Source: Patescibacteria group bacterium (GTDB lineage: Bacteria; Patescibacteriota; Minisyncoccia; Phycocordibacterales; UBA1006). Taken from it: a stretch of 39,083 bases of DNA. The stretch is taken from the NCBI GenBank assembly GCA_020428645.1, contig JAGQMN010000007.1, positions 1-39,083 of the forward strand, read 5' to 3'. The position numbers and the translations under genes are program-made. The notes below the pieces were generated by a model. That model had not been told where the DNA came from. It did no database searches and saw only the letters and a program-made list of their open reading frames with translations. Below are positions 11,594-27,309 of the stretch, in pieces. How positions within the stretch are numbered: the stretch's first letter is position 1; every line of letters starts with the position of its first letter.

Positions 11594-12652
11594 TTACTGT
11601 TGATCTAAAAAAGTAAAGACTTCTTGATGAGTCAATACATTTGCCACGTAGGCACGTACGTTATTCTCGTCGATACCTTTTTGATCCTTGTACTGTTCCA
11701 TGATTTTTTTAGTCTCTGCCTCAACCAATTCATCAGATGGATCAATCTTCTCTTGTGTGGCAATGTGGTTCAGCATGAGCTGTGTCTGTGCACGTTTGTA
11801 TGCTTGGTCACGCCACTCTGTTCGGTAATCATCACGGGTTTTGTTGATTGATTGTAGGTAATCATCAAACGACATACCCGTCATGGCAATGTTTCCCTCA
11901 AATTCGTGTACCATTTTATCGAGCTCGTATTCAACCATCATATCTGGCACCTCGATTTTTGAATCTGCAATAATTGCCTCAATCGTTGCAATACGACGTT
12001 TCTCGTGATTCTTTGCTTCTTTTTCGCTTACAAGATTTTCTTTGATCTTTTTTGTAAATTCCTCAACATTTTGGAATTTCCCAATAGTTTTTACCCACTC
12101 GTCCGTAACCTCAGGTAAGTCTTCGTCCTTGATATCATTCCACGAGACAGGATCTTCGCCGTCCTTGAGGTTTTCCATCGCATTCTGCTGTGCACGCATT
12201 TTGCGCAGATTTGTAATAGTCTCTTCAACCTCGGTATCATCAACATCAGTAGCGTATTCTTTCTTGTTTTCTTCTTTGGCGATTTTCTTATAGTTACCAA
12301 GTTTAATATCTGGCAACACGGCAGTAGTAATTGTAAACTCAAGATCAGAACCTTCGGCAATTTTAGTAATTGCAATCTGTGGATGACCAATCGCCTTAAT
12401 ATCTTCTTTTTGAAGAATTTCAATGTAGGCATCACTGATCGCGCGATGTGCCATTTCTTCAAGAATCTGCATTCCACTGATCTGTTTTAATGCAACATCT
12501 CTCGGTACCTTACCTTCTCGAAATCCATCAACTTTGACTGAACTGATGAGTTCTTGTTCAGTCGTTTCGCGATATCCTTCCAATTTCTTTGCTGGCAAAA
12601 CAACCTTGATTTCAACTTGTGCATGTTCTCGTTTTTGTACGTCTATTTTCAT
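11594..12652 (-). CDS. tig: trigger factor lacking the PPIase domain
   Basis: A 352-residue ribosome-associated chaperone. The N-terminal domain carries the ribosome-docking signature GFREGKVPRD (about 46-55). The family normally has an FKBP-type PPIase domain of about 90 residues near 150-245; here a short acidic linker (about 140-185) leads directly into the C-terminal cradle (EVTDEWVKTIGKF onward). The chaperone should still bind nascent chains but not isomerise prolines. The GTG at 12661 lies next to the -10 box, so the ATG at 12652 is taken as start. Confidence 0.9.
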   Translation of the reverse strand: MKIDVQKREHAQVEIKVVLPAKKLEGYRETTEQELISSVKVDGFREGKVPRDVALKQISGMQILEEMAHRAISDAYIEILQKEDIKAIGHPQIAITKIAEGSDLEFTITTAVLPDIKLGNYKKIAKEENKKEYATDVDDTEVEETITNLRKMRAQQNAMENLKDGEDPVSWNDIKDEDLPEVTDEWVKTIGKFQNVEEFTKKIKENLVSEKEAKNHEKRRIATIEAIIADSKIEVPDMMVEYELDKMVHEFEGNIAMTGMSFDDYLQSINKTRDDYRTEWRDQAYKRAQTQLMLNHIATQEKIDPSDELVEAETKKIMEQYKDQKGIDENNVRAYVANVLTHQEVFTFLDQQ

Positions 12653-12659
12653 GGGGCTC

Positions 12660-12668
12660 ACTATACCA
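12660..12668 (-). promoter_or_regulatory. extended -10 promoter of tig
   Basis: TGG-TATAGT on the minus strand with a 7-base gap to the ATG at 12652. It is divergent from the promoter at 12715. Confidence 0.65.
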
Positions 12669-12714
12669 AACCAACCTCGTAAGTAAAGAAATGGTTCTAA
12701 TACCTATAGTAAGA

Positions 12715-12723
12715 TGGTATAAT
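12715..12723 (+). promoter_or_regulatory. extended -10 promoter of the 928-residue exported protein
   Basis: TGG-TATAAT with a 6-base gap to the ATG at 12730. Confidence 0.8.
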
Positions 12724-12729
12724 TTTTCT

Positions 12730-15516
12730 ATGATAAAGAAAATATTTGCACTATTCATAATTCTCATGATGCTAACTACCCCTGTTGTATCGCGGGCTCA
12801 AATTGGAGGAGTTGTTACCGACCCGGGTAACACAGGGGTCAATTTAAGTCAGAAAATTTGGCTTGAAATCAAAGAAGAGGTGATCGTTCCTATGGTAAAA
12901 CGATTAGCTGATCGTGTTATGACGAAAATGAGCAGTCAAATCATCAACTGGGCGAATGGCGGGTACGATGACGACCCGAGTTTCATAAATAATTTTGATG
13001 AATTTTTAAAGGGAACAAAACATGAACTCATTGCATCCAGTTTTGGATATGCGAGTGCTGTTGCTCTTAATGCTGCAAGCGGGGGTGGATTTATTGCCGA
13101 TGCTGAATATCTAGCATGTGTTGATGTGGCAAATACAAACTATGATTTCCGCATTGAAGTTGAAGGTATGCCTGCTGAACAATCAGCAACCATTCGTAAT
13201 GCAGATATTGTTCAATGTGAGAACGATGCTCGTGATCGACAAATTGGTGAACAAGCCCAACAAAATTACACATTATTTCAATCCAGTAACCCAGCACGAG
13301 ATGTAGCAAACACGATTGCTAACACTGGTATTAGCCAACTCACAAACAACGATCAACTCAAACAAATTATTGAAGGAAAAGGAGAAACATTGTCTAAAAT
13401 TCTTGGATCAGAAGCAGATAAACAAGCATTTATTGATGATCTCAAAAATGTTGAAAATAAAGATGCGGCAATTGTGTGGCAAGCATTCATTGCACAAGCA
13501 GACAAACACAACCGCTCTAGCGGGTTAACTAATCTCGTTAATGAAATACTAGAGAAACAAATTATTGATAATCAACAACAGACACTCGATGAACTCAACT
13601 TGCCAACAACACTGCTCAGTAAACGAACGTGTACTGATTACAACGATGATGGTACCTGTGCACGTGAAGAAGTAGAAACACCAGGTGATATTGTTGCTGG
13701 AAGATTAGTTGAAGAGTTAGGTGTAGAACAACATAAAGCAGAAAGTGTTGGGGGAGCATTAGTACAATCGCTCATTAGTGGCCTCGGGAAACTTACCGGA
13801 GACCTCACCAATCTTGGACTCAGTAAATTAACCAGCTCTGTTTCGCAAACATTTTTTAGACAAGCTGATATTCAACCACTATTAGCTGGTAGTAGCACCG
13901 GTGGTGGGTATCAATCAGCATTTGACGTACTTGGTGTCAGTGCAAACGGTGATTTTGGTGGTGATTTTGGTGGTGATTTTGGTGGTGGTGTTATTGATGA
14001 TGGTGTTAATGGGGTGAGCAATAGCATTTATGACATCTTCGTTGGTGGGCCTGAGCATGCCAACACAGGATTCAACGGGCAACCACCGATTATTGTTGAC
14101 TTTAAAAAAGATCTCGAACGAAATATTGCATACGTTGAAGAAGAGCGTGGATACTACGAAGAATTAAACGATATATTACTTGGAGCAACTGATGTTATTT
14201 ACGAATTTGATAAATGTGTACCAGGACCAGACTACAACTGGGATGATAAATATCGAGATAAGATTATTTACGGGATAGAAAGCGAAGATGATCGAGCACT
14301 TAACAGTCTCGGATTCTCGGAAACACAATCAATGATTCGTGATCCGCGCGTCACTATACCCGGCGGGGTAACCATGAGAGAGCGTGTAGGAAGACTCTTG
14401 GAAAATGCAAAAGAAACAACCCAGGAAAGTAAAGAGTACGAAAACCGAATACAAGACGCGCTCTTGACGTTAGGTTATATCAAAGATGCTATTTTGGAAG
14501 ATTTTGAAACACAAAAAGCAAGTATCCATCCAAACCTTGTCTTGTTTAGCGATGAATGGAGTGAACTTTCAGATCTTATTAAGCAACAACTTTTAGGAGA
14601 GGCTATCGATCGTGGATACTACTTGAATCCAGCATACATAGATGGTGAAAACATTTACTTTACAACTGCACTAGCAGAAGATCCTGGTGGAACAAAAAAC
14701 GCGGTACTCTCGATGGCATGGGACTTGTGGGTTGAACAAACAGAGGCGGGCGATAAATTACAGCTCAGGCAAGCGTACTACGGGCTCGATCGTGAAGGAA
14801 AATTATCAAATGAAGAATTTATTGCAACCGCGCAGTCACGATTGAATAGAACTCGTCAAAGCGTTGAACAATCCTATGGTGCTGCACGTGACTGTTTGGC
14901 CTTCAAGGCATACGCTGTTGGCTACGAACGTTCACAAATTTCATCAATCACGTCAAATCCATCATTTACTGAATTAACCAAGATTGAAAAATTAGCAGAG
15001 CTGGTGAATGCTCTTGATCCAAACAATTTTGAGATCAATCAGCCACCATTTGGTGCGGTATTCCTAAAATATAACGTTAACAATGCACGAAGTGATAGTG
15101 CCATCAAAGCATTCCTTAATGCTGAACGAGCACTCCAACAATCAGGAGGAACCAGTGTCTTTACATCAGCACTAGTAACAGGGGAAACAGCGATTGCAAA
15201 TAGTATCCTTGGATTCGCAAGTGATACTGAAAAACAGGACTATTTCGCAAGTAATTATCCTGATGATGAATTGCCGACTGATACCATTAAAAACAAACTC
15301 ACCATTAAGGACATGTACGAGGTAGACCGTATGTACGCGAAAAGTAATCGTATCGAAGCTGGTGCAAAGGGACACCTCTTCTGTCGTACATCTGCAGAGT
15401 ATGAAATTATTAACAGTTCAGGAGGAGGAGATACCTATGGAACCTACTGTTGGCGAGATGTGTACGCTGCACGTGGACTTGATTACCGACTCATTATTGA
15501 AAATATTGATTACTAA
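12730..15516 (+). CDS. large exported protein at the head of the T4SS locus
   Basis: A 928-residue protein with a signal peptide (MIKKIFALFIILMMLTTPVV, likely cut after SRA). After it come helix-rich segments, a glycine-rich tandem repeat GDFG (three units encoded near 13950-13990), a long charged region with ERGYYEELNDILLGATDVIYE, and a C-terminal part with paired Cys (for example LFCRTSAEY and TYCWRD). No known domain was recognised. Its position just before the VirB6-like gene suggests a surface or channel-associated role in type IV secretion, by context only. Confidence 0.7.
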   Translation: MIKKIFALFIILMMLTTPVVSRAQIGGVVTDPGNTGVNLSQKIWLEIKEEVIVPMVKRLADRVMTKMSSQIINWANGGYDDDPSFINNFDEFLKGTKHELIASSFGYASAVALNAASGGGFIADAEYLACVDVANTNYDFRIEVEGMPAEQSATIRNADIVQCENDARDRQIGEQAQQNYTLFQSSNPARDVANTIANTGISQLTNNDQLKQIIEGKGETLSKILGSEADKQAFIDDLKNVENKDAAIVWQAFIAQADKHNRSSGLTNLVNEILEKQIIDNQQQTLDELNLPTTLLSKRTCTDYNDDGTCAREEVETPGDIVAGRLVEELGVEQHKAESVGGALVQSLISGLGKLTGDLTNLGLSKLTSSVSQTFFRQADIQPLLAGSSTGGGYQSAFDVLGVSANGDFGGDFGGDFGGGVIDDGVNGVSNSIYDIFVGGPEHANTGFNGQPPIIVDFKKDLERNIAYVEEERGYYEELNDILLGATDVIYEFDKCVPGPDYNWDDKYRDKIIYGIESEDDRALNSLGFSETQSMIRDPRVTIPGGVTMRERVGRLLENAKETTQESKEYENRIQDALLTLGYIKDAILEDFETQKASIHPNLVLFSDEWSELSDLIKQQLLGEAIDRGYYLNPAYIDGENIYFTTALAEDPGGTKNAVLSMAWDLWVEQTEAGDKLQLRQAYYGLDREGKLSNEEFIATAQSRLNRTRQSVEQSYGAARDCLAFKAYAVGYERSQISSITSNPSFTELTKIEKLAELVNALDPNNFEINQPPFGAVFLKYNVNNARSDSAIKAFLNAERALQQSGGTSVFTSALVTGETAIANSILGFASDTEKQDYFASNYPDDELPTDTIKNKLTIKDMYEVDRMYAKSNRIEAGAKGHLFCRTSAEYEIINSSGGGDTYGTYCWRDVYAARGLDYRLIIENIDY

Positions 15517-16116: not shown

Positions 16117-18243
16117 ATGAAATTGCTCTCTCAACGTTTGGTATCAATGGTGGTCATAGCGGTTGCGCTCCTTGCACCGGTACACGTACAATTTGACGGT
16201 ACTCCATTTCAGAAGTATGCAACACAAGAATTAAACACTTTGGGACAAAAACAAAATCTAACAATCAACCAAATGCAGGTGGTACATGTAGAAGTTGGAA
16301 TCGCACATGCACAACAAACACCTGATACGTGTAGTTTTGGTGATTTGGGATGCTATTTTGTAAATTTACTCGAACTTATTCTCGTAAATACTACGATGTT
16401 CTTTGCAGGAATTGCAGGGTTTGTACTAGATTTCTTTTTAGAGTTCAGTATTAATTCGGCATCATACCGTGATACAGGGTTCATTGAACAAGGGTGGGAA
16501 ATCATACGCGATTTCACCAACATTATCTTTATCTTTGCACTGCTCTTGACTGCATTCAAAATGGTAGTAGGCACTCAAGGAGGTAATACCAAAAAAACGC
16601 TCATTAAAACTATTCTCGTTGCACTTACCATCAACTTCAGTTTATTTTTTGTATATCTGATTGTTGATAGTTCAAACTTACTTGCCTATACGTTTTACAA
16701 CAAAATTGAAGCGCCAGAAATCAGCTTTAATCCACGAGGAGGTGGTATTACAAGTAGCTCTGGAGGAAATAGCGGTAATCCGGATGCTGCAGGTAATTCA
16801 ACTGAATTTGATTTAAATGGAACAGCTATTGAAGGACGAAAGGCTCCATCAATATCGCTCGCACTCTTGCAAAAAGTAAATCCTCAAAAACTCCTCGATG
16901 AATTAAAGGGGGAGAAAGACGCCGAACGTATGATTTTGATCTTTATCGTTGGGGCAATTAACATTGCGTTCATGTTCCTGTTCCTGTCAGTATCCTTGCT
17001 CTTCCTAGGTCGGACACTCGGGCTGATGATACTTGGTATTACGGCACCATTTGCGATGGCATCACTCGCGCTTGGTTCAAAAGCGGCAAATTTATCTTAC
17101 GTCGGATGGAACAAATGGTTTCCGCAGGTAATCAGCCTGTCGTTCATGGCACCGGTGTTTGTGTTCATGTTGTACCTCACCACCTTATTCTCAAAAATTA
17201 CTGATAACCTCGTCATTGATAACGCGGCAGGTGTCATTAACACCGTGTTTAAGATTGCACTGCCAATGCTCGTGATCTTTACGCTCGTTCAACTCTCAAA
17301 AAGGATGGCAAACAAAATGGCAGGGGAAATAGGTGGTTTCATCAATGGATACGTACAAAAGGCTGCTGGGGCAGGACTCGGTATCGCAGCGCTGGCAGTA
17401 ACAGGTGGGGTTGCTGCTGGAGCGGGAGCTCTTGGTAAGGGTGCAAGTATGTTTGGTGCCAAAAACTTTGCTGAAAAAGCCCGTAACGTAGCAAAAGTGG
17501 CAGCAAGTACTAAGTTCGATGTTTCAAAAATTCCAGGGTTTTCTGCGTTTGCAGGTAAAGATGGTTCGAAGGTAATGTCTAGTTTGTCAGGTAAATCACT
17601 CCGTGAACAGTATCAAGACAAGCAAAAAGAATTCCGCGAGAAAGGTGTGTATTCAAACGATACTGCGAAATTAGATAAACGCTACGAAGAACGTAAGAAG
17701 AAAGACGCTGATGATAGTGCGGACGAAGCGCGCAAGAAGGCGGAAGCGAAACATGAAGCTGAACTCTACGAAGCAAAGATGAAAGAGATGACAGCAAAGC
17801 AAACCGAACAATACAAGGCTGTCGATAGACGTCTCCAAGAAGCAAATGCTGCCTTGAAACAACTTCTTGCCGAGGAACGTAGATTAAAAGGGATCATGAG
17901 TGACAAATCTCGTAGTGATACCGAAAAAGATGCTGCAAAGGCTGAGCTTGAAACACTACGTAACAAACAAGCTCTACAAGAAGAAAAGAAGAAAAGTGCA
18001 CAAACAGAACTCAAAGATATGGGAATTCCTGAACTTGAAAAACGAGTCAAAGATGTTGAAGATAAGAAAAAAGACGACGGTGATCGTGCAGAAAACCAGT
18101 CTCGACAAGCTTCAGCAAGTCAGGTTATCGGGACTGATCCCGCACTCGCAAATGCAATTCTCAATAAAAAGAAAGCAAAAGGTAAACAAGTGGACATCGA
18201 GAAATTTGAAAAGTACGTCAAAGACCTCGATAAAGACAGTTAG
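16117..18243 (+). CDS. VirB6/TrbL-like T4SS inner-membrane channel protein
   Basis: A 708-residue protein. An N-terminal export signal is followed by an extracellular stretch with a Cys pair (TCSFGDLGCYF, about 73-83). Membrane helices follow in two groups: about 87-195, then a Gly/Ser-rich loop, then 270-435. Last comes a long, highly charged cytoplasmic tail (about 490-708) of Lys/Glu-rich coiled coil. The membrane core resembles VirB6/TrbL polytopic proteins that line the translocation pore. The long coiled-coil tail is a feature beyond the basic family. It precedes the PrgI and VirB4-type genes, supporting the call. Confidence 0.75.
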   Translation: MKLLSQRLVSMVVIAVALLAPVHVQFDGTPFQKYATQELNTLGQKQNLTINQMQVVHVEVGIAHAQQTPDTCSFGDLGCYFVNLLELILVNTTMFFAGIAGFVLDFFLEFSINSASYRDTGFIEQGWEIIRDFTNIIFIFALLLTAFKMVVGTQGGNTKKTLIKTILVALTINFSLFFVYLIVDSSNLLAYTFYNKIEAPEISFNPRGGGITSSSGGNSGNPDAAGNSTEFDLNGTAIEGRKAPSISLALLQKVNPQKLLDELKGEKDAERMILIFIVGAINIAFMFLFLSVSLLFLGRTLGLMILGITAPFAMASLALGSKAANLSYVGWNKWFPQVISLSFMAPVFVFMLYLTTLFSKITDNLVIDNAAGVINTVFKIALPMLVIFTLVQLSKRMANKMAGEIGGFINGYVQKAAGAGLGIAALAVTGGVAAGAGALGKGASMFGAKNFAEKARNVAKVAASTKFDVSKIPGFSAFAGKDGSKVMSSLSGKSLREQYQDKQKEFREKGVYSNDTAKLDKRYEERKKKDADDSADEARKKAEAKHEAELYEAKMKEMTAKQTEQYKAVDRRLQEANAALKQLLAEERRLKGIMSDKSRSDTEKDAAKAELETLRNKQALQEEKKKSAQTELKDMGIPELEKRVKDVEDKKKDDGDRAENQSRQASASQVIGTDPALANAILNKKKAKGKQVDIEKFEKYVKDLDKDS

Positions 18244-18333: not shown

Positions 18334-19158
18334 ATGAAATTAACCAATGCGGAAATACAACGAAAAATTTCTGAACTTCCTGAAAACATACGAAATGCCA
18401 TCAACCAATTTGATTGGTCCGGTGAAGTACTTGCTATTGGAAAAAGTCACAATTTGCAAATTGACGAATTGAATATCTTCCAAAAACACACACTTGAGGT
18501 AATTGTTGGATTAACATCAGCGAGCGACTACCAAGGTATATTACAGCGAGAGCTCGGAATAGATACACAAACAGCCGAAGATATTGTCATTGAAGCAAAC
18601 CAAAGAATTTTTCGTGAACTACAAAAAAGAGCATTTACTACTGAAATAGATAATGAGGTGGAAATAGATACTACTTCTGTAAATTATGAACGTAATGATC
18701 CTTATCGAGAACCTCTTGAACACGACGGCATTAAACACGTCATGCGTACTGAGGGTATTGAACTCCTTGATCACGATGAGGATATGATAGTTACAACTGA
18801 GGTAGATACTCTGGAAAAACCGAAAAGTAACTACAGTGAGCCACAGTCAGCGAAACCTGCTACTAATTACCGCGAGCCTATTGAGGAACAAGATTTGAAG
18901 GGGGTTAAACAGCGGACTGCAGATATGAGAATTCTTAAAACAAAGAATCACATAACACCAGACAGCGCTTTTAATGAAAATACTTCTATACCATCAGAAC
19001 AAGTCATTGATCAGAGTCTCGATAAGAAGCTCCATGGAACTATACATACAGGAACTGAACACACTATTGACCTATCACACCTAGGGAGCGAGCATCAAGA
19101 AACAGGAGGTGAAAGATTTTTACAACAATTGTCTGACGCAGAGATTGCTGAGCATTAG
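18334..19158 (+). CDS. hypothetical cytoplasmic protein of the T4SS locus
   Basis: A 274-residue soluble protein without signal or membrane helices. Residues about 1-100 are predicted helical (ISELPENIRNAINQFDWSGE, then NIFQKHTLEVIVGL). This part resembles short helical domains common in Parcubacteria proteins next to pili and secretion genes. The remaining two thirds are low-complexity, acidic and rich in Glu, Thr and Ser, likely disordered, with a NYxEP-type element seen twice (NYSEP, NYREP). No function assigned. It may be a cytoplasmic partner of the secretion machine. Confidence 0.65.
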   Translation: MKLTNAEIQRKISELPENIRNAINQFDWSGEVLAIGKSHNLQIDELNIFQKHTLEVIVGLTSASDYQGILQRELGIDTQTAEDIVIEANQRIFRELQKRAFTTEIDNEVEIDTTSVNYERNDPYREPLEHDGIKHVMRTEGIELLDHDEDMIVTTEVDTLEKPKSNYSEPQSAKPATNYREPIEEQDLKGVKQRTADMRILKTKNHITPDSAFNENTSIPSEQVIDQSLDKKLHGTIHTGTEHTIDLSHLGSEHQETGGERFLQQLSDAEIAEH

Positions 19159-19193: not shown

Positions 19194-19607
19194 ATGAGAT
19201 TTGAAGTTCCACAATTCATCAACGTACCTGATAAACTCTTTGGTCCGTTCACTTTCAAACAAGCCCTCTACCTGGTTGGAGGTGGTGGTCTCATCTTTAT
19301 TTTGAACAAAACTATGCCATTTTTTGTGACCATTGTTTTGGGTATTCCGATTGCAGCACTTTCTCTTGGACTTGTGTTCTATAAACCAAATGGTCGTGAC
19401 TTCATTTACATGGTTGAATCGTTTCTCATCTACAGTTTTAGCCACAAATTTTACCTCTGGCGACAACGAGAGCCCGAACCAGGCGCACAGGATGTTACCC
19501 ACATTCACGCACCATTTCCTGAAGAAGGATCAGTTCCAAAAGAAGACAAACGTGAAAAAATTTCTGATCTTGCGTGGAGTTTAGATATCTTAGATTTTGA
19601 TGAGTAA
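19194..19607 (+). CDS. PrgI-family (VirB3-like) T4SS membrane protein
   Basis: A 137-residue protein. The family signature QFINVPDKLFGPFTFKQALY (about 7-26) is followed by two membrane helices (about 24-40 and 43-62), then the cytoplasmic segment KPNGRDFIYMVESFLIY and a charged tail. PrgI proteins are the counterparts of VirB3 in Gram-positive and CPR type IV systems and work beside VirB4. The gene stands immediately before a VirB4-type N-domain gene, as expected. Confidence 0.85.
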   Translation: MRFEVPQFINVPDKLFGPFTFKQALYLVGGGGLIFILNKTMPFFVTIVLGIPIAALSLGLVFYKPNGRDFIYMVESFLIYSFSHKFYLWRQREPEPGAQDVTHIHAPFPEEGSVPKEDKREKISDLAWSLDILDFDE

Positions 19608-19659: not shown

Positions 19660-19669
19660 GATGACACGT

Positions 19670-20338
19670 ATGGCAGATGTTAAAACATATACTGGTCCTC
19701 GAACCCAAGATTTCATCCCGGTAAAAGAAATTCGCGATGGGATTGTGGTACTCGAAGACGGCAGTCTCAGGGCTATTTTGTTAGCCTCAGCAATCAACAT
19801 TGCACTGAAATCTGCTGAAGAACAGCAGGCAATTGTATTTCAATTTCAAGGATTTTTAAATTCCATTGAATTTCCAGTTGAAATTGCCGTGCAATCACGG
19901 AGACACGACATTAAACCCTATCTCCTCACCCTCGAGCGACGTGTTGAACAACAAGAAGAAGAACTCCTGAGGTTGCAAACCAAAGAGTATATTGAATTTA
20001 TTAAGTGGTTTACTGATTCAGTCAATATCATGTCAAAGAATTTCTACGTGATTGTTCCCTACACTGGGGGGGCATTCAGTGCGCCTCAATCAAACTCAAA
20101 AAATCCTTTGGCTGGAATCTTTGGTTCCAAGAAAACAACACCTAACTTTAAACAAACATCGGCAAAATTTGAAGAACAACGCAGTCAAATTGAACAACGT
20201 GTTGCTATCGTTAAGAGTGGTCTCTCTCGTTTCGGGGTTCGTTCTGAGCAACTCAACACCGAGCAAGCTATTGAAGTGTTCTACAATATGTTTAACCCAG
20301 GAGAGAACCATAGAAATATCCCTCAACTTGAACAGTAA
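19670..20338 (+). CDS. VirB4/TraC N-terminal-domain-like protein without ATPase
   Basis: A 222-residue cytoplasmic protein resembling the N-terminal, membrane-proximal part of VirB4/TraC (DFIPVKEIRDGIVVLEDGSL, then a VEIAVQSRRHDIKPYLLTLE strand-helix and a long helix rich in Glu/Gln at about 84-115). It ends before any Walker motif, so it is not an ATPase. The complete VirB4 lies three genes downstream with its own N-domain, so this is an extra, paralogous module. It may form part of the VirB3/VirB4 base. Confidence 0.65.
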   Translation: MADVKTYTGPRTQDFIPVKEIRDGIVVLEDGSLRAILLASAINIALKSAEEQQAIVFQFQGFLNSIEFPVEIAVQSRRHDIKPYLLTLERRVEQQEEELLRLQTKEYIEFIKWFTDSVNIMSKNFYVIVPYTGGAFSAPQSNSKNPLAGIFGSKKTTPNFKQTSAKFEEQRSQIEQRVAIVKSGLSRFGVRSEQLNTEQAIEVFYNMFNPGENHRNIPQLEQ

Positions 20339-20415: not shown

Positions 20416-21438
20416 ATGTTAGAGCAAGCCTCAAAACACCTAACCATTCTCAGCCTCATGTTCTTTGGGTTTTTCACGGTGTACATTGGAAATGTAGCAG
20501 CTCAAGATATTCAACTCTATTCAGAACAAGATATTAGCGTCGAGGTAATTCCCGAAATTCCTGGACCTAACGAACACGTGAAACTTCGATTAACAAGCTA
20601 CAGCTTTAACCTCAACAACTACTACATCGCATGGTTTAAGGACGGAGAACGTCAGTCAGGCGGGTACGGGCAACGCGATTTCGATTTTACAACCGGTAAC
20701 TCTGGTGATGTAAACAATATTACCGCAGTTATAGAAATTGGCGGACAAGTATTTCGAAAAGAACTTCGTTTCGCACCATCACAGGTAGACCTCTTGTGGG
20801 AGGTAATTGATGGATACGCACCACCATTCTACAAAGGCAAGGTACTACCAATCAAACAATCAGATATTCGCGTTACGGCGATTCCTGAAACACTCCTGAT
20901 TGAACCAACTGATGCACCAAATTTGGTGTACTACTGGGATCGTAACTATAATCGCGTTGGATCACAATCTGGTTTTGGAAGACAGTACTTTGATTTTACC
21001 CTTGATCCACTGTTAGCTAGCGAAAAAATTCAGGTGACCACAAACGATCGACGTGAAAACTCTTTTGCTAAAAATACTCTGACCATAGCTGAATTATTAG
21101 TCGAACCTAATATACTGTTTTACGAAATTAACGATTCTGGAAGACTGCTTACTCAACAAGCGCTCAATATAAATAAATATGTAACAGGTGATACTATACG
21201 TTTTGCATTTCAACCACTTTATATGTCAACAACAAAGAAAAACTTTAACGATTTGTTTGTGGGGTGGTCTATTAATGGGGAGGCGCGTCCACCACAAGAT
21301 TTTAGTAAACAAAATGAACTCTACATAGGGGCAGGTGGTCAAAGGGGTGAGGTGACTATTAATCTACAACTTGAAGGTATTGAAAAATTATTACAAAAAG
21401 CAAGTGGTGGATTTCAACTCATTTTTACAGAAAATTAA
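20416..21438 (+). CDS. exported protein with tandem Ig-like beta domains
   Basis: A 340-residue protein with a signal peptide (hydrophobic core LTILSLMFFGFF, likely cut after NVAA). The mature part has at least two repeats with the same order: a GP-rich strand (ISVEVIPEIPGPNEHVKLRL and IRVTAIPETLLIEPTDAP), an aromatic strand with a W-K/R dyad (IAWFKDGER and VYYWDRNYNR), then GYGQRDFDFT or GFGRQYFDFT. This repeat pattern fits Ig-like folds. It lies 3 bases before the pilin/NlpC gene, so the two are cotranscribed; a surface role with the secretion machine is inferred. Confidence 0.7.
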   Translation: MLEQASKHLTILSLMFFGFFTVYIGNVAAQDIQLYSEQDISVEVIPEIPGPNEHVKLRLTSYSFNLNNYYIAWFKDGERQSGGYGQRDFDFTTGNSGDVNNITAVIEIGGQVFRKELRFAPSQVDLLWEVIDGYAPPFYKGKVLPIKQSDIRVTAIPETLLIEPTDAPNLVYYWDRNYNRVGSQSGFGRQYFDFTLDPLLASEKIQVTTNDRRENSFAKNTLTIAELLVEPNILFYEINDSGRLLTQQALNINKYVTGDTIRFAFQPLYMSTTKKNFNDLFVGWSINGEARPPQDFSKQNELYIGAGGQRGEVTINLQLEGIEKLLQKASGGFQLIFTEN

Positions 21439-21441
21439 GAT

Positions 21442-23688
21442 ATGAAACAATCAATTAAAATAATTGGATACATCGTTGTAATTCTTGGGCTTGGATCTAC
21501 ATACACGTATTACCACACTGCACACGCCGCTGAGGCGTGTCGCATTAAAGAAACGCCAAGCCTAACATCAGCAGGCGGGACTATTAAACACGGTAGTAAA
21601 GTAATACTTACCGTTGAAGCTGAAAATTACGACAACTGTATTAATACTGAGGGTAATCCTGATAACGGTAAGTTCCGTGTTGAAATTTGGGAATACGATA
21701 ATGTGATTATTCCCCCATATATCGATACAAATGATAATCAGGTTGAGATTGACTTACTTGGGTCAGGAATAGAATTTAGACTTACTGAAAAGCTCGAATT
21801 GCCATTTATTACTGGTAGCGATGAGTGTGGTTTTGAACCTGAGTTATGTAAATACTATGCTCGTGTCATTATGGGTGACCAGGTTCTTGAAACAAATCAA
21901 ATTCAATACGACTGTCCAAGTTCTGGTTGTACCGATGGTTGGAATGTGCACCCGGAGATGTTTGCGCTTATTTCAAACTGTACGGTCACTAACATCGAAC
22001 TTAATCCTGATGGTGATCAAACCGACGGTGGTGTTAACGGTGGTCCATTTTTAGGAAGTAGTGGGAATGGCGAATATCAAAATGTAGAAGTCATAGTCAC
22101 CACACAAGGGTGTGCCCCGTACAGTACTGAGAAAAAATTCTTTGACGTATTCATTGAGATTGCAACAGAATTTAACGAAGATAATGAACCAATCGAGTGG
22201 CAAAAAATTTCGTCCGGTGATTCACAGCTCAAAGGTGCCTTCGTTGATGAAGATGGAAAATTAAAAATTGTATACCGACCAGGTGATGATCTGTGTACTG
22301 ACAGCGATAAGTGTGTCTACAGAGCAACGGTTGATACACAAACTACAAGAATTAGTGGTTTTGAAATGGCACTCATTACTCCAACCCCAGGAAATTACTT
22401 TGCTGGGTTAGCTCTGATTTTTGATGGTCTTGATGGATTGACATCGGTTTCACTAGGTAAACAAAGTTCTGATTTTTATGGAAGCACTATTCAGTACAAA
22501 TGTCTTGAAGAAAATAGCTCAGGTGGGTACTGTAATAATGTTGACTGGGAAATCAAATTTCACAACGGCGTAGATAGTGAGGGAAACCCTATTATTCAAG
22601 ATCCCTCTCAGTTTTTTGACCCGAATAGTCCATGTTATACCGAGGAAGATAAACTGGTTGCTGGAACTATTCAAAAGGTTCCTGCATACCTTGAAGACTG
22701 TTATGAGTTTCTCGCACCGATTCCAGGATTTAGTACAACTGATGATGCGGGGGGAAGCAACCTGATTGTTAATGGTGATCGAATTGGTATTAGAAATATA
22801 CGTGAATTAAAACTGGAAGATTATATTAACTCAATATTCCAAATAGCACTGGGTGTCCTCATGGTGTTAGCGGTCGTCATGATTATTGTGGCGGGCGTTC
22901 AATATATGACAGTCGAGAGTTTCTATGGTAAATCTGACGCAAAAAAGCGTATAGGTGGTGCACTCACGGGACTCATTCTATCACTTGGTATCTTCATCAT
23001 ACTTAACACCATTAACCCACGACTCTTGCAGATTAATTTTGGTGATAATATTAAAACGGTAACCTTAAGTATTGATAGTTTCCATGGAGGTGATGGTGGT
23101 GCAAAACCTGGTGGAATAATTGAACAAATTCCTACTGAATTAATGTCAACAACATTTATTCCTGGAAAGATATATTGTCCAGGAACAGGCGGTCAGTCAG
23201 AAATCCCTAAAATTGCTAGAAGTTTCATTGGTGTTTCAACGTATAGATACGGAGCAAAAGGTGCACCACTAAACTCAGGAGAAATATATCAGGATGCCCC
23301 AAATAAAATATGTGAGAATGGTCAGCAATGTCGTACGTTCTGCCCTGAAAATTCTTTTTGTATAGATTGTTCTGGTTTTGTTAACCATGTATTAAAATGT
23401 GCCGGAGTGATTGACTCATCATTAGGAAATACGAGGGCTATATTTGATAACGTACGTCCATACACTAGTTATAACCCAACCACACAAGAAATAGACAGTG
23501 TTCCACTTGAAATAGGTGATTTAGTTGGAGAACCTGGACATGTAGGTATTTATATAGGTGAAGGAAATATTGTTGAGGCTACATCATTTCAAAATGGTAG
23601 ATTAACAAATAATAATACTCAAGAGAACTCATTTAACGAGAGACGAGTAGCATTCATTAAAAGAATTAGGAAATTTAATTCATTTTAA
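21442..23688 (+). CDS. pilin-like (VirB2-type) domain fused to an NlpC/P60 peptidoglycan hydrolase
   Basis: A 748-residue protein. An N-terminal signal (to about residue 30) leads to a Cys-rich beta region (about 30-440). Then come two membrane helices, about 465-488 and 503-522, with the CPR pilin/TrbC-like pattern (ALGVLMVLAVVMIIVAGVQY, a short polar turn SDAKKRIGGALTG, second helix, then TINPRLL). The C-terminal part is an NlpC/P60 domain with Cys643 in DCSGFVNHV and His700 in GHVGIYIG. It probably opens the cell wall for the secretion channel (VirB1-like role). Extra Cys residues around the active site suggest disulfides. Confidence 0.8.
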   Translation: MKQSIKIIGYIVVILGLGSTYTYYHTAHAAEACRIKETPSLTSAGGTIKHGSKVILTVEAENYDNCINTEGNPDNGKFRVEIWEYDNVIIPPYIDTNDNQVEIDLLGSGIEFRLTEKLELPFITGSDECGFEPELCKYYARVIMGDQVLETNQIQYDCPSSGCTDGWNVHPEMFALISNCTVTNIELNPDGDQTDGGVNGGPFLGSSGNGEYQNVEVIVTTQGCAPYSTEKKFFDVFIEIATEFNEDNEPIEWQKISSGDSQLKGAFVDEDGKLKIVYRPGDDLCTDSDKCVYRATVDTQTTRISGFEMALITPTPGNYFAGLALIFDGLDGLTSVSLGKQSSDFYGSTIQYKCLEENSSGGYCNNVDWEIKFHNGVDSEGNPIIQDPSQFFDPNSPCYTEEDKLVAGTIQKVPAYLEDCYEFLAPIPGFSTTDDAGGSNLIVNGDRIGIRNIRELKLEDYINSIFQIALGVLMVLAVVMIIVAGVQYMTVESFYGKSDAKKRIGGALTGLILSLGIFIILNTINPRLLQINFGDNIKTVTLSIDSFHGGDGGAKPGGIIEQIPTELMSTTFIPGKIYCPGTGGQSEIPKIARSFIGVSTYRYGAKGAPLNSGEIYQDAPNKICENGQQCRTFCPENSFCIDCSGFVNHVLKCAGVIDSSLGNTRAIFDNVRPYTSYNPTTQEIDSVPLEIGDLVGEPGHVGIYIGEGNIVEATSFQNGRLTNNNTQENSFNERRVAFIKRIRKFNSF

Positions 23689-23758: not shown

Positions 23759-25402
23759 ATGAGGTTCAGTGTACGAAAAATTATAGTGCTCGTGTTAGCA
23801 CTCATTATTGTTGGTGGTGTTTGGTTTTTTGCATTTTTAAATTCGGATCAACAAACTGAAGTTATTACTACGACGAAAAACTTATTCCCCTTCGGGGAAA
23901 TTAATCAGAGTGGATCGACACCAACAAGCAATTCACAAGAAACAACGGGTAGTGAAACAACGGGTGGTTCACAAACAACCAGCGATGACACTACATTTGA
24001 AGTTGAAGGACCGCGGTTACGACAAGTCTCATACTTTCCAACAGGTGGGTTCATTCCACTCACACGTACCGAAGAGGAAGATGTTGTTGATATAGTGGTA
24101 GATGAGAATGGTATTGAAACAGAGATATTCAACACCACAACTATTGAACACCAGTATGTTCGCTACAGCAGCATTGCTGATGCGACTATCTATGAATCAG
24201 AGCTTACACCATCAAGTATTCAAGAAGAACAGCTCGTTGAAAACTTCATACCAAATGCCGAGCGAGCACGATTCAACCGTGATGGTAACCGTGTGCTATT
24301 TCAATACTGGGACAGTGATGATGGGGTACCTGAGAGTTACCTCGCGCGGATCGAAAAACTCGCGCTCACTATCGAACCGTGTCCATTTGATTTCGGCCCT
24401 ATTACCCTTGGTGAAGAAACTGAGCGCGTACGCGATATTCACACATTCCTCAACCGAAATGCTCAAACAAGAATCGCACGTTCAGGAATTAATGCGCCAG
24501 GAAATGAATCAACCCGAGCTAGTGATGCAACTATCACTGCTATTAAAAACTTTCAGAGTCTCTATCAAATCGATATAGATGGTGCTATCGGACCATCAAC
24601 GCAAGCAAAAATGCAGGAAGTGTGTAACGACCAACAGCGACGTGCTGCTGAAGAATTGTTCAACAAACAAGACGAAAAATACAAAATCTCTGGATTCTTT
24701 TTAGCTCAAAATATTTTGGAAGCTGACATGAGTCCATCAGGTGGAGAACTCTTCTATCTCCAAAAAGATAACCTAGGGGTTATTGGGGTAATCCGAAATC
24801 TCATAGATGAAAGCAAACGGACCGTATTTGAATCACCGTTTAGCCAGTGGTTAGTCAACTGGAATAATCCACAAAACATTGAGCTGACAACGAAACCAAG
24901 TTACCGTGCTGATGGTTATACCTACAGCCTTGATCCGGATACGAACCGATACTTTAAATCACAAGGAGAAGAGCTCGGACTCCTCGTCAAACCAAGTCCA
25001 GATAATAGCAAGATGCTGATTATGGAATCTACGAATAGTGGCATTCAATTGGGAATTTTTGAACGAGCATCAAAACGTATACGGCAGCTCAGTCTCCGAA
25101 CCCTTCCTGAAAAATGCGTGTGGCTCGAAAATAGTGTCGATCTGTACTGTGGGGTACCAAATAGTATGGCATATGGAAATCAGTATCCCGATACATGGTA
25201 TCAAGGACTTGAAACCTTTACTGACTCACTCTGGAAAATTAATACCACAACTCTCGAAGAAACTGAAATTTCAAACATGAGTCGAGAGTACCAAGCTACT
25301 ATTGATATTGAAGATATACAGGTTGATGAACGAAATGAGTACTTGTACTTCATTGATAAAGGTACTGAATTCTTGTGGAGTTACCGTCTCGTTGATTTTT
25401 AA
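23759..25402 (+). CDS. membrane-anchored protein with a peptidoglycan-binding domain
   Basis: A 547-residue protein with an N-terminal membrane anchor (about 7-28), a Ser/Thr-rich linker of repeated GSETT/GGSQTT type (about 50-75) and a beta-rich segment. A PG_binding_1-type domain follows at about 205-290 (LGEETERVRDIHTFLNRN ... AIKNFQSLYQIDIDGAIGPSTQ). The C-terminal part has repeated strand units with internal SPxG/SPDNSKM turns that look like a beta propeller. It is placed between the wall-hydrolase fusion and VirB4, so it may anchor the secretion apparatus to peptidoglycan (inference). Confidence 0.75.
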   Translation: MRFSVRKIIVLVLALIIVGGVWFFAFLNSDQQTEVITTTKNLFPFGEINQSGSTPTSNSQETTGSETTGGSQTTSDDTTFEVEGPRLRQVSYFPTGGFIPLTRTEEEDVVDIVVDENGIETEIFNTTTIEHQYVRYSSIADATIYESELTPSSIQEEQLVENFIPNAERARFNRDGNRVLFQYWDSDDGVPESYLARIEKLALTIEPCPFDFGPITLGEETERVRDIHTFLNRNAQTRIARSGINAPGNESTRASDATITAIKNFQSLYQIDIDGAIGPSTQAKMQEVCNDQQRRAAEELFNKQDEKYKISGFFLAQNILEADMSPSGGELFYLQKDNLGVIGVIRNLIDESKRTVFESPFSQWLVNWNNPQNIELTTKPSYRADGYTYSLDPDTNRYFKSQGEELGLLVKPSPDNSKMLIMESTNSGIQLGIFERASKRIRQLSLRTLPEKCVWLENSVDLYCGVPNSMAYGNQYPDTWYQGLETFTDSLWKINTTTLEETEISNMSREYQATIDIEDIQVDERNEYLYFIDKGTEFLWSYRLVDF

Positions 25403-25464: not shown

Positions 25465-27309
25465 ATGTCGTTGCTCTCAGACTTACTCGGTACAAAAAAG
25501 AAGGTCGAAGTGAAGAAAACCGCGGTACCGGTACTACCAGGTGAAATTTATAGAACAGCAAAGCTCCAACTCCAAGATATTCTTGCACCAGCAGCGCTCG
25601 AAGTCTCATCAAAATCAATCAAGATTGCTGGTAAAACATCTCGTACGTTCTTTGTTATGTCGTACCCACGATTTCTCACTGATGGGTGGCTCGCACCTAT
25701 TGTGAACCTCGACAAGGTATTTGATATTGGTATCCACATTCATCCCATTCCAACTGAAAAAATTCTCTCTGAATTCAAGAAAAAAGTAGCCGAGGTACAA
25801 TCTCAAATTAATACGAGAGAAGCAAAGGGATTAGTGCGTGATCCTATCCTCGATACTGCGTACCGTGACCTAGAACAGTTACGTGATGCACTCCAACAAG
25901 CACAGGAAAAAATCTTTTCAGTAGGTCTTTACATCACCATCTATGCTGATAGTGAGGATGAGCTCTTTAAAACCGAGAACGAAATTCGCTCGCTCCTTGA
26001 ATCAAAACTCATTTACCTTAAACCAGCACTGTTTCAACAAATGGAAGGATTTCTCTCGGTCGCACCTATTGGAAAAGACAAACTCCAAGTACACACAAAA
26101 CTCAATACAGGGCCAGTATCATCATTCTTTCCATTCATTTCATCTGAATTGACTGATAACAAAGGTATTCTCTATGGTATTAACCGTCATAATTCAGGAC
26201 TCATTATTTTTGACCGGTATTCGCTCCCAAACTACAACTCAGTGATTTTTGCGACATCTGGAGCGGGGAAATCCTATGCGACAAAACTCGAAATTTTACG
26301 TACCATGATGTTTGATACCGAAGTGATTGTCATTGATCCAGAACGCGAGTACGAGTACCTTGCCGAAGCAGTTGGTGGTCGATACTTTAATATTTCATTG
26401 TCGTCTGAACACCACATCAACCCGTTCGATGTTCCGGAACCGCTTGAAGATGAAGATCCAGCAGATGTGCTCCGTACGCACATCATTCACCTCGTGGGAC
26501 TCTTCCGCATCATGCTCGGTGGTCTCAGTCCAGAAGAGGATTCAATTATCGATCGCGCCATTACTGAAACCTACGCACTCAAAGATATCACACCAAGTTC
26601 AAACTATGCGAGCATCGAACCACCACTCATGTCAGACTTTGAAATGGTACTCTCATCAATGGAGGGAAGTGAATCATTGCTCACTCGCCTCACTAAATAT
26701 ACACGAGGAACGTGGTCAGGGTTCATAAACAAACCATCAAATGTTGATATTAATAAAAAATTAGTGGTTTTCTCAATTCGCGATATGGAGGATGAGCTCA
26801 AACCAGCCGCGATGTACATCATCACCCAGTTCATCTGGAACGCGGTTCGTAAAAATATCAGAAAGCGACTCCTCGTGGTTGATGAGGCATGGTGGATGAT
26901 GAAATCAGACGATACCGCATCATTCTTGTTCATGATCGCAAAACGTGGGCGCAAGTACTTTCTTGGTCTCGCTACTATCACTCAGGACGTGGGAGACTTC
27001 ATTAAATCACGGTACGGGGTTCCTATTATCACGAACTCATCCATGCAGTTGTTGTTAAAACAATCACCGAGTGCGATTGATCAACTTCAAGAAATATTTA
27101 GACTCACCGACGAGGAAAAGTACCTTCTGATTGAATCAAACGTAGGTGAGGGAATCTTTTTTGCAGGACTCAAACACGTTGCAATTAAAATTATTGCGTC
27201 GTACACAGAAGATCAAATTATCACCTCAGATCCGGCTCAAGTACTCTCTATCAGAAAAGCACGTAAAGAACTAAAAACATCAGAAGAAAATACAAGCTTT
27301 GTAAATTAA
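25465..27309 (+). CDS. virB4: VirB4-type T4SS ATPase
   Basis: A 614-residue cytoplasmic ATPase that energises the secretion channel. The N-terminal domain (about 25-240) is of the VirB4/TraC type, with a charged helix at 100-150. The ATPase part has Walker A TSGAGKS at 264-270, the DPEREYEYLAEAVGG segment typical of VirB4, and Walker B LLVVDEAWWMM near 475. A downstream ITQDVGDF motif completes the family pattern. No VirD4 coupling ATPase, VirB11 or relaxase is in the window. It is expressed from its own promoter and ends in a strong two-way terminator. Confidence 0.92.
   Translation: MSLLSDLLGTKKKVEVKKTAVPVLPGEIYRTAKLQLQDILAPAALEVSSKSIKIAGKTSRTFFVMSYPRFLTDGWLAPIVNLDKVFDIGIHIHPIPTEKILSEFKKKVAEVQSQINTREAKGLVRDPILDTAYRDLEQLRDALQQAQEKIFSVGLYITIYADSEDELFKTENEIRSLLESKLIYLKPALFQQMEGFLSVAPIGKDKLQVHTKLNTGPVSSFFPFISSELTDNKGILYGINRHNSGLIIFDRYSLPNYNSVIFATSGAGKSYATKLEILRTMMFDTEVIVIDPEREYEYLAEAVGGRYFNISLSSEHHINPFDVPEPLEDEDPADVLRTHIIHLVGLFRIMLGGLSPEEDSIIDRAITETYALKDITPSSNYASIEPPLMSDFEMVLSSMEGSESLLTRLTKYTRGTWSGFINKPSNVDINKKLVVFSIRDMEDELKPAAMYIITQFIWNAVRKNIRKRLLVVDEAWWMMKSDDTASFLFMIAKRGRKYFLGLATITQDVGDFIKSRYGVPIITNSSMQLLLKQSPSAIDQLQEIFRLTDEEKYLLIESNVGEGIFFAGLKHVAIKIIASYTEDQIITSDPAQVLSIRKARKELKTSEENTSFVN

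Follow-up and report, generated by a model that had tools for sequence, protein, structure and literature searches.

The closest described counterparts of the protein considered here are of two kinds. The VirB1-type hydrolases of Gram-positive type IV secretion systems (T4SSs), exemplified by TraG of pIP501, PrgK of pCF10 and VirB1-89K, are peptidoglycan cutters encoded in the T4SS operon, and we know of no pilin hairpin in any of them. Passages of a 2025 survey of Patescibacteria attribute lytic transglycosylase and cysteine-peptidase activity to such proteins, the two frequently being combined in a single protein (PMC12102498). The VirB2/TrbC pilins and the T4SS_pilin family (PF18895) are characterized by a two-helix core with a basic loop, Sec-type export and a place in a T4SS locus, and a passage of a further source puts the length of mature VirB2 pilins at about 64–104 amino acids (aa) (PMC6536674). 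Here we analysed a 39,083-nt stretch of DNA (hereafter the window: contig JAGQMN010000007.1 of assembly GCA_020428645.1, contig C37 of a 720-kb genome) from a Patescibacteria group bacterium, a member of a large assemblage of very small bacteria that probably depend on hosts. One of its open reading frames (ORFs), at 21442–23688 on the plus strand, encodes a 748-aa protein with exact limits (P0001) that joins a pilin-type core to a predicted NlpC/P60 wall hydrolase.

In contrast to the Gram-positive VirB1 proteins, the enzyme here is the C-terminus of a pilin-type membrane protein, a glycan cutter and a peptide cutter may be divided between tandem copies, and close relatives differ in the family of their enzyme. 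P0001 shares the two-helix core, basic loop, Sec-type export and T4SS locus with the VirB2/TrbC pilins, but its core is embedded in a 748-aa protein with an enzyme and immunoglobulin (Ig)-like parts, whereas Saccharibacteria relatives are mostly plain pilins. Wall cutting is also genetically tied to the T4SS in Candidatus S. epibionticum ML1, in which separate peptidase and lysozyme homologues lie downstream of virB4 and are essential for epibiotic growth according to passages of the survey (PMC12102498); by that published description, the difference is the fusion to a pilin-type core seen here. The same passages state that most Patescibacteria genomes with VirB2 homologues lack VirB1, from which it was argued that the Patescibacteria pilus can do without VirB1, and that the association of VirB1 homologues with VirB4 is stronger in Paceibacteria than in most classes (PMC12102498). 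Our results suggest that the missing VirB1 is often present in the order to which the window belongs, as a cutter fused to the end of a pilin-type protein. The role of the T4SS of Saccharibacteria has been described, in a passage of another source, as completely unknown (PMC11665869). The parts of P0001 are already known and, as far as the open-access literature shows, what is new is the widespread fusion and the exchange of the enzyme. We found no pilin–hydrolase fusion described in that literature (titles, abstract openings and passages); Table S3 of PMC12102498, with VirB1 homologues of which some have extra domains, may hold such proteins.

A pilin-type core and an NlpC/P60 domain in one protein

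A first-pass annotation, made from the window alone, had proposed that P0001 consists of pilin-like helices followed by a complete NlpC/P60 domain and preceded by a Cys-rich exported region, and Pfam, hydropathy and an AlphaFold2 model confirmed this order. Past its N-terminus, P0001 has two strongly hydrophobic segments only (460–494 and 502–529), and its core is flanked by 420 aa on the N-terminal side and 214 aa on the C-terminal side; 14 Cys residues lie in the exported stretch aa 30–455. The Pfam T4SS_pilin model matched the helices with E 2.5e-5 (24.7 bits against a cut-off of 26.6 in hmmscan; 30.2 bits, over the cut-off, in a six-frame search), as did the NCBIfam Mbov_0395 pilin-like model (E 4.1e-6, under its cut-off). 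The AlphaFold2 model of the full protein is poor overall (mean predicted local distance difference test score [pLDDT] 57), and the Foldseek match list obtained with it was filled by Ig domains; it places two helices in the core (Table 1) and gives the catalytic region an autolysin/CwlO fold.

The NLPC_P60 model of Pfam matched residues 640–736 (E 1.4e-6, above its cut-off). Modelled region 583–743 aligned with the Clostridioides difficile autolysin Acd24020 (7cfl; Z 13.1, root-mean-square deviation [rmsd] 2.8, 114 aligned residues) and with the DL-endopeptidase CwlO (Z 11.9, rmsd 3.0, 118 aligned), both standing well above the remaining rows of the fold comparison. Cys643 and His700 stand where the first reading had placed them. 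Taking fold and profile together with the catalytic Cys, the His and a third polar residue, the domain would belong to the NlpC/P60 endopeptidases, and peptidoglycan hydrolysis is its predicted activity. NlpC is present once in the genome of the window.

A profile of the core (A1, 97 positions) matched 17 of the 20 genomes of the window's family, 175 of 197 sampled genomes of the order and, at E ≤ 1e-12, 118 of 286 genomes of the phylum. The order sample comprises 92 loci, many of which span just ~10 kb or are cut by contig ends, with 101 core ORFs, 75 of them extending at least 100 aa past the core; outside the order, 40 chosen loci gave 45 ORFs with at least 90 aa past the core. Loci L040–L059 and L061–L071 were picked from matches to P0001, L072–L131 represent about one good match per family code among the matches listed, with weak matches under-sampled, and L164–L203 are the better matches of the phylum-wide core search. 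ORFs were called by a simple script that takes the first start after a stop.

At E ≤ 0.01, T4SS_pilin was found in 65 and TrbC/VirB2 in 8 of the 75 long ORFs, and T4SS_pilin in 43 and TrbC in 9 of the 45 ORFs outside the order. That the helices might align with an unrelated holin-like family had been named as grounds for abandoning the pilin assignment; no holin was among the 25 families listed for the 75 ORFs or the 22 listed for the 45, an absence that excludes nothing. The net charge of the inter-helix loop averages +0.99, against -0.75 and -0.54 for the flanks (87 of the 101 cores, the search motif being missing from the other 14), and is above zero in 57 of the 87. With a two-helix pilin profile match and a basic loop, the core can be classed, as far as sequence goes, with the VirB2/TrbC pilins. 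A hydrophobic N-terminus precedes it in 86 of the 99 ORFs having their own start. Since the loop is basic, the flanks are slightly acidic and a hydrophobic N-terminus lies ahead of the core, the hairpin is expected to have its two ends on the outer side and its loop in the cytoplasm.

The first-pass annotation had gone further and taken the hairpin for the channel subunit. The pilin-type module fused to a hydrolase in a T4SS operon stands, whereas the channel-subunit identity goes too far, given a separate pilin array on contig C34 and the pre-core region of 420 aa, which is ill-suited to a major pilus subunit. At 748 aa and with long flanks, P0001 does not resemble a short, mature, polymerising subunit and is therefore not classed as a pilus subunit. 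The second pilin locus of the genome (G000:C34:10971–15143; loci L002–L008 and L060) is an array of ordinary pilin genes; contig C34 has five PF18895 matches above the cut-off, one of them in an ORF of 524 aa that has a large ectodomain but lacks an enzyme.

VirB4 was found in 16 of the 20 family genomes, and all 16 carry the core. Three of the four VirB4-negative genomes are without the core (Fisher p 0.0035); the fourth, G017, has it on a 5.9-kb contig. A survey of relatives for the same domain order revealed the fusion in dozens of genomes; both the order of its parts and its operon slot recur across many independent assemblies from several projects, so that the rare assembly artefact feared at the outset is not what we see. 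Public records with relatives are named Paceibacterota, Campbellbacteria, Nomurabacteria, Yonathbacteria and others. In 14 Saccharibacteria-named loci, read by eye, nearly all core-like ORFs end ~35 aa or less past the core and plain pilins prevail; Paceibacteria-named records have, also by eye, LAS-like, VanY-like and NlpC-like ends. Searching phage and plasmid collections with P0001 (tblastn) gave partial NlpC matches only, in one record each, and a scan of viral contigs gave no relative.

Exchange of the enzyme on a conserved anchor

The fusion foreseen by the first-pass annotation is thus borne out, and its main feature, the swapping of the enzyme, lay outside that annotation's view. Among the 75 long ORFs, Pfam (E ≤ 0.01) assigned SLT to 9, NLPC_P60 to 5, M23 and VanY to 2 each, and M15_4, SLT_2, SLT_3, HH_signal (with M15_3) and Transglycosylas (the latter under its cut-off) to 1 each. 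A wall-hydrolase family was thereby recognised in 23 of the 75, and a LAS-type domain was present in 20 more, giving 43/75. SLT, the family with VirB1 homology, occurs in those 9 of the 75 orthologues, while the window's own protein carries NlpC. The labels of L044, L052, L055, L061, L069 (second copy), L124 and L125 are based on phmmer links or motifs read by eye. In the 45 ORFs outside the order, the assignments were Peptidase_C39_2 (5), Amidase_2 (2) and SLT, Glucosaminidase, Peptidase_M15 and GH18 (1 each), with most others left without assignment; PKD matches occur in 3 of the 45.

Other ends, read by eye among L103, L120 (second copy), L131 and L059, are GH75-like, lysozyme-like and repeat-rich beta-helix-like; by eye, the end of L180 is apparently the GH18 match just mentioned, and L176 has three tandem core ORFs with long, adhesin-like C-termini. 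The accessions of T4SS_pilin (PF18895) and SLT_3 (PF18896) are adjacent in Pfam, and our guess is that the curators possibly met both together.

The LAS-type domain is the commonest predicted C-terminal enzyme of the order sample. The 20 ORFs share the pattern TGGTE..H..HGP....DL...HWH (alignment A3; e.g., L062:9808–10230), the His residues being lost in L120. VIA re-alignment of the AlphaFold2 model of the domain (pLDDT 88.8) gave Hedgehog domains (Z 7.2, rmsd 3.8, 109 aligned), followed by MepA (5.6), LdcB/VanY (5.4), Ply500 (4.5) and VldE (3.9), with the first unrelated row at 3.3. It is this re-alignment that supports the assignment and not Foldseek, which returned no match at E ≤ 0.001 and had Hedgehog at rank 10. 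Comparing the sequence with PDB chains gave chance-like matches only, and likewise for one further relative; no Pfam model matched at the thresholds used (E ≤ 0.01), and no NCBIfam model matched the seven members scanned. The domain resembles the LAS peptidases (Hedgehog N-domain, MepA, LdcB/VanY and Ply500) in its fold and in an H..D..HxH-like set of residues, and differs from them in the lack of a matching Pfam model. A3 can be described as a predicted zinc wall-peptidase family, unnamed in Pfam. In L119, a LAS-type domain also occurs at 1933–2928 on the minus strand, on a membrane-anchored protein without the pilin core beside the fusion gene.

Exchange is visible between close relatives. 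Within the window's family, 16 of the 19 ORFs with a C-terminus carry an enzyme, either recognised or LAS-type, while L044, L052 and L055 are enzyme-like by motif or phmmer link. Genomes of the window's genus whose VirB4 is 95% (G009), 93% (G005) and 92% (G003) identical to that of the window carry SLT_2, VanY and VanY, respectively; those at 89% (G002), 88% (G006) and 96% over 249 aa (G007) carry LAS-type, SLT and NlpC, and LAS-type ends. The two tandem copies of L040 are 100% identical over 515 aa of ectodomain and core and 27% beyond, where one ends in SLT and the other in NlpC, and their near-identical DNA stops 1579 bases past the ORF start. L041 and L048 share 85% of the core and end in NlpC and LAS-type domains; L052 and L053, from one genome, share 99% of the core and have different ends. 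On a tree of five operon proteins, the 15 family tips (two of them, L052 and L055, labelled on weaker links) require a minimum of 8 changes of enzyme class, against 8.5 ± 0.6 for shuffled labels; because this is close to the shuffled level, enzyme class has no phylogenetic signal in the family. L041, L044, L048, L069 and L092 had too few columns and were left out of the tree. These results demonstrate that the fused enzyme is exchangeable among unrelated hydrolase families on a conserved anchor.

Two long core ORFs are present in six loci of the order (L040, L069, L092, L097, L119 and L120). Five of these pair a glycan-strand with a peptide-bond enzyme, the second end of L069 being LAS-like by motif only and the first of L119 weak; five mixed pairs out of five have a chance of ~1% given the class shares of the sample, with eye-made labels included. 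L120, the sixth, combines a degenerate LAS-type end with an end without assignment. Outside the order, L178 pairs SLT with Peptidase_M15. By analogy, such pairs may correspond to a two-domain Gram-positive VirB1 split over two anchored proteins. In a search for silent enzyme cassettes near the locus, our home-made enzyme profiles matched just two non-core ORFs, a short overlapping frame in L092 and the membrane-anchored LAS-type protein of L119. Contig ends near the gene were not counted as a hint of more tandem copies, as short contigs make such ends likely.

The T4SS locus of the window

The fusion gene lies between tig and yidC/jag/dnaA, in an operon that also holds PrgI, a TrsD-like protein and VirB4 (Table 1). 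In being a predicted wall hydrolase encoded in a T4SS operon, its product resembles the VirB1-type proteins. Near the core, VirB4 was found in 81, TrsD in 72 and PrgI in 64 of the 92 loci, and the two adjoining genes are more frequent still. Passages of the survey (PMC12102498) already describe, for Patescibacteria, T4SS genes close to dnaA and TrsD as a gene of its own, and a split VirB4 was accordingly dropped as a novelty. VirB4 lies downstream of the gene for the peptidoglycan-binding protein in the window's genus and upstream of the gene for the Ig-like protein in most of the order. The products of the upstream genes g12619, g16117 and g18334 are 34–57% identical to those of L043, L045 and L047, against 92–93% for VirB4.

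Table 1. Parts of P0001 and neighbouring genes, with their positions in the window
Feature	Position	Strand	Basis
Large exported protein of the T4SS locus, probably starting downstream of the listed GTG	12619..15516	+	
Polytopic membrane protein, possibly VirB6-like	16117..18243	+	position/topology; no Pfam match
T4SS-locus protein without known domain	18334..19158	+	
PrgI (VirB3-like)	19194..19607	+	Pfam PrgI E 1.1e-7
TrsD-like, separate-gene homologue of VirB4 N-terminal domain	19661..20338	+	NCBIfam TrsD E 1.4e-6, under cut-off
Exported Ig-like protein adjoining the fusion; in 83/92 loci	20416..21438	+	
Signal-peptide-like N-terminus, aa 1–29, with A-H-A/A-E cleavage-like site (putative cleavage)	21442..21528	+	sequence reading; AlphaFold2 helix 2–17
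Exported Cys-containing ectodomain, aa 30–420; two Ig-like sandwiches, ~32–160 and ~174–312	21529..22701	+	AlphaFold2, low confidence; Foldseek and VIA Ig rows, Z about 7.5
Conserved pilin-type core, aa 421–533	22702..23040	+	profile A1 E 6e-37; Pfam T4SS_pilin 458–524; alignments
Transmembrane helix 1, aa 458–490	22813..22911	+	AlphaFold2 model; hydropathy
Transmembrane helix 2, aa 494–524; Lys/Arg-rich at its start	22921..23013	+	AlphaFold2 model; hydropathy; sequence
NlpC/P60 catalytic domain, aa 583–743	23188..23670	+	Pfam E 1.4e-6; 7cfl and CwlO by sequence and fold
Cys643, predicted nucleophile (DCSGF)	23368..23370	+	kept in 6/6 aligned NlpC-type members
His700, predicted catalytic base (GHVGIY)	23539..23541	+	kept in 6/6 aligned NlpC-type members
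Glu712, third polar position	23575..23577	+	acidic in 6/6 aligned NlpC-type members
Membrane-anchored peptidoglycan-binding protein (PG_binding_1); in 82/92 loci	23759..25402	+	Pfam E 5.4e-6
VirB4-type ATPase	25465..27309	+	NCBIfam CD1110 family E 2.1e-113, above cut-off

Possible roles of the anchored enzyme

Starting from the architecture, the operon slot, the co-occurrence with VirB4, the catalytic residues and the exchange of enzymes on one anchor, we consider it rather probable that the protein stands in for the usual free VirB1 hydrolase of the T4SS as a tethered and interchangeable enzyme, held by a pilin-type anchor. We infer its topology, its physical association with the T4SS, its activity and the wall that is cut as follows. 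Export would put the N-terminal Ig-like part outside, and the VirB2/TrbC-type hairpin would enter the membrane such that its basic loop faces the cytoplasm, leaving the C-terminal enzyme outside as well. The hairpin may then dock in the membrane assembly of the T4SS and hold the enzyme at the wall, beside the membrane-anchored peptidoglycan-binding neighbour. Local cleavage of peptidoglycan peptide bonds by the NlpC/P60 domain would there open a way through the wall for the machine, while the Ig-like part and the neighbouring peptidoglycan-binding protein may attach to the wall or to the surface of a host. Passages of PMC10936435 place proteins with peptidoglycan-binding domains and T4SS pilins among the highly expressed extracellular genes of archaea-parasitising Paceibacteria. 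As the anchor would be the only part that has to match the machine, the enzyme could be exchanged; lineages would have replaced it with other glycan or peptide cutters, with tandem copies often pairing one of each.

Several observations weigh against this proposal. The hmmscan pilin score of P0001 itself is just below the Pfam cut-off, and comparison of the core profile with PDB chains by sequence gave no VirB2 structure and chance-like matches only. NlpC triads more commonly have His, Asn or Gln as their third residue, and an acidic one, as Glu712 here, is less usual. An enzyme is not obligatory, since 26 of the 101 core ORFs have less than 100 aa past the core (some being cut by contig ends) and 32 of the 75 long ones carry no recognised enzyme, several of them looking like coiled coils. 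The walls of methanogens are not known to contain murein. Some Paceibacteria parasitise methanogens, as stated in passages of PMC10936435.

An alternative, which we regard as credible but unlikely, is that the protein is a warhead directed at the host: the Ig-like part would bind the host and the swapped hydrolase attack the host wall at the point of contact, diversified by host switching or an arms race in the manner of polymorphic effectors. The absence of phylogenetic signal in enzyme class (8 changes on 15 tips, shuffled mean 8.5) fits this idea, and so does the ectodomain, only 23–30% identical among genus members whose VirB4 is 88–93% identical. According to passages of two sources, NlpC, Amidase_2 and Glucosaminidase are also found among antibacterial T4SS effectors of Xanthomonadales (PMC6536674), and all cultivated Patescibacteria are episymbionts (PMC12206443). 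However, two helices anchor the enzyme to the producer's own membrane, so that it is no released effector, and no immunity gene was noticed, though no search for one was made. Neutral replacement among wall cutters would yield the identical pattern, and further genes of the operon diverge as fast (34–57%); enzyme exchange therefore need not imply an arms race.

It is improbable, more so than the warhead, that P0001 is a general autolysin that uses the pilin-like hairpin as a mere membrane anchor with no functional tie to the T4SS. Two-helix membrane anchors are simple, and the large ectodomain argues against assembly into a pilus. Nevertheless, the gene keeps a fixed slot amid conserved T4SS genes in most of the 92 loci, VirB4 is lost too in all three family genomes without the core, and conservation within the protein is highest in the hairpin. 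An assembly chimera or annotation artefact can practically be dismissed: most of the genomes were assembled from metagenomes, and short reads cope poorly with long, nearly identical tandem copies such as those of L040, but the same order of parts recurs in independent public assemblies and dozens of genomes with open frames and conserved catalytic residues.

The tethered replacement for VirB1 would reduce the question of how the machine passes a wall, and whose wall, to one small soluble domain. Enzyme swapping at the site after the core may be a marker of host adaptation, and the LAS-type domain adds a family of predicted wall peptidases that no Pfam model matched at the thresholds used. A wider proposal, which we put forward tentatively and hold to be doubtful, is that the pilin-type module is a common T4SS socket across Patescibacteria, in which an N-terminus that binds surfaces and one out of some ten unrelated wall cutters, recombined right after the hairpin, form a contact-dependent, host-matched device for breaching walls. 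If this were true, the device would be a polymorphic weapon that forms part of the secretion machine itself and is not one of its secreted products.

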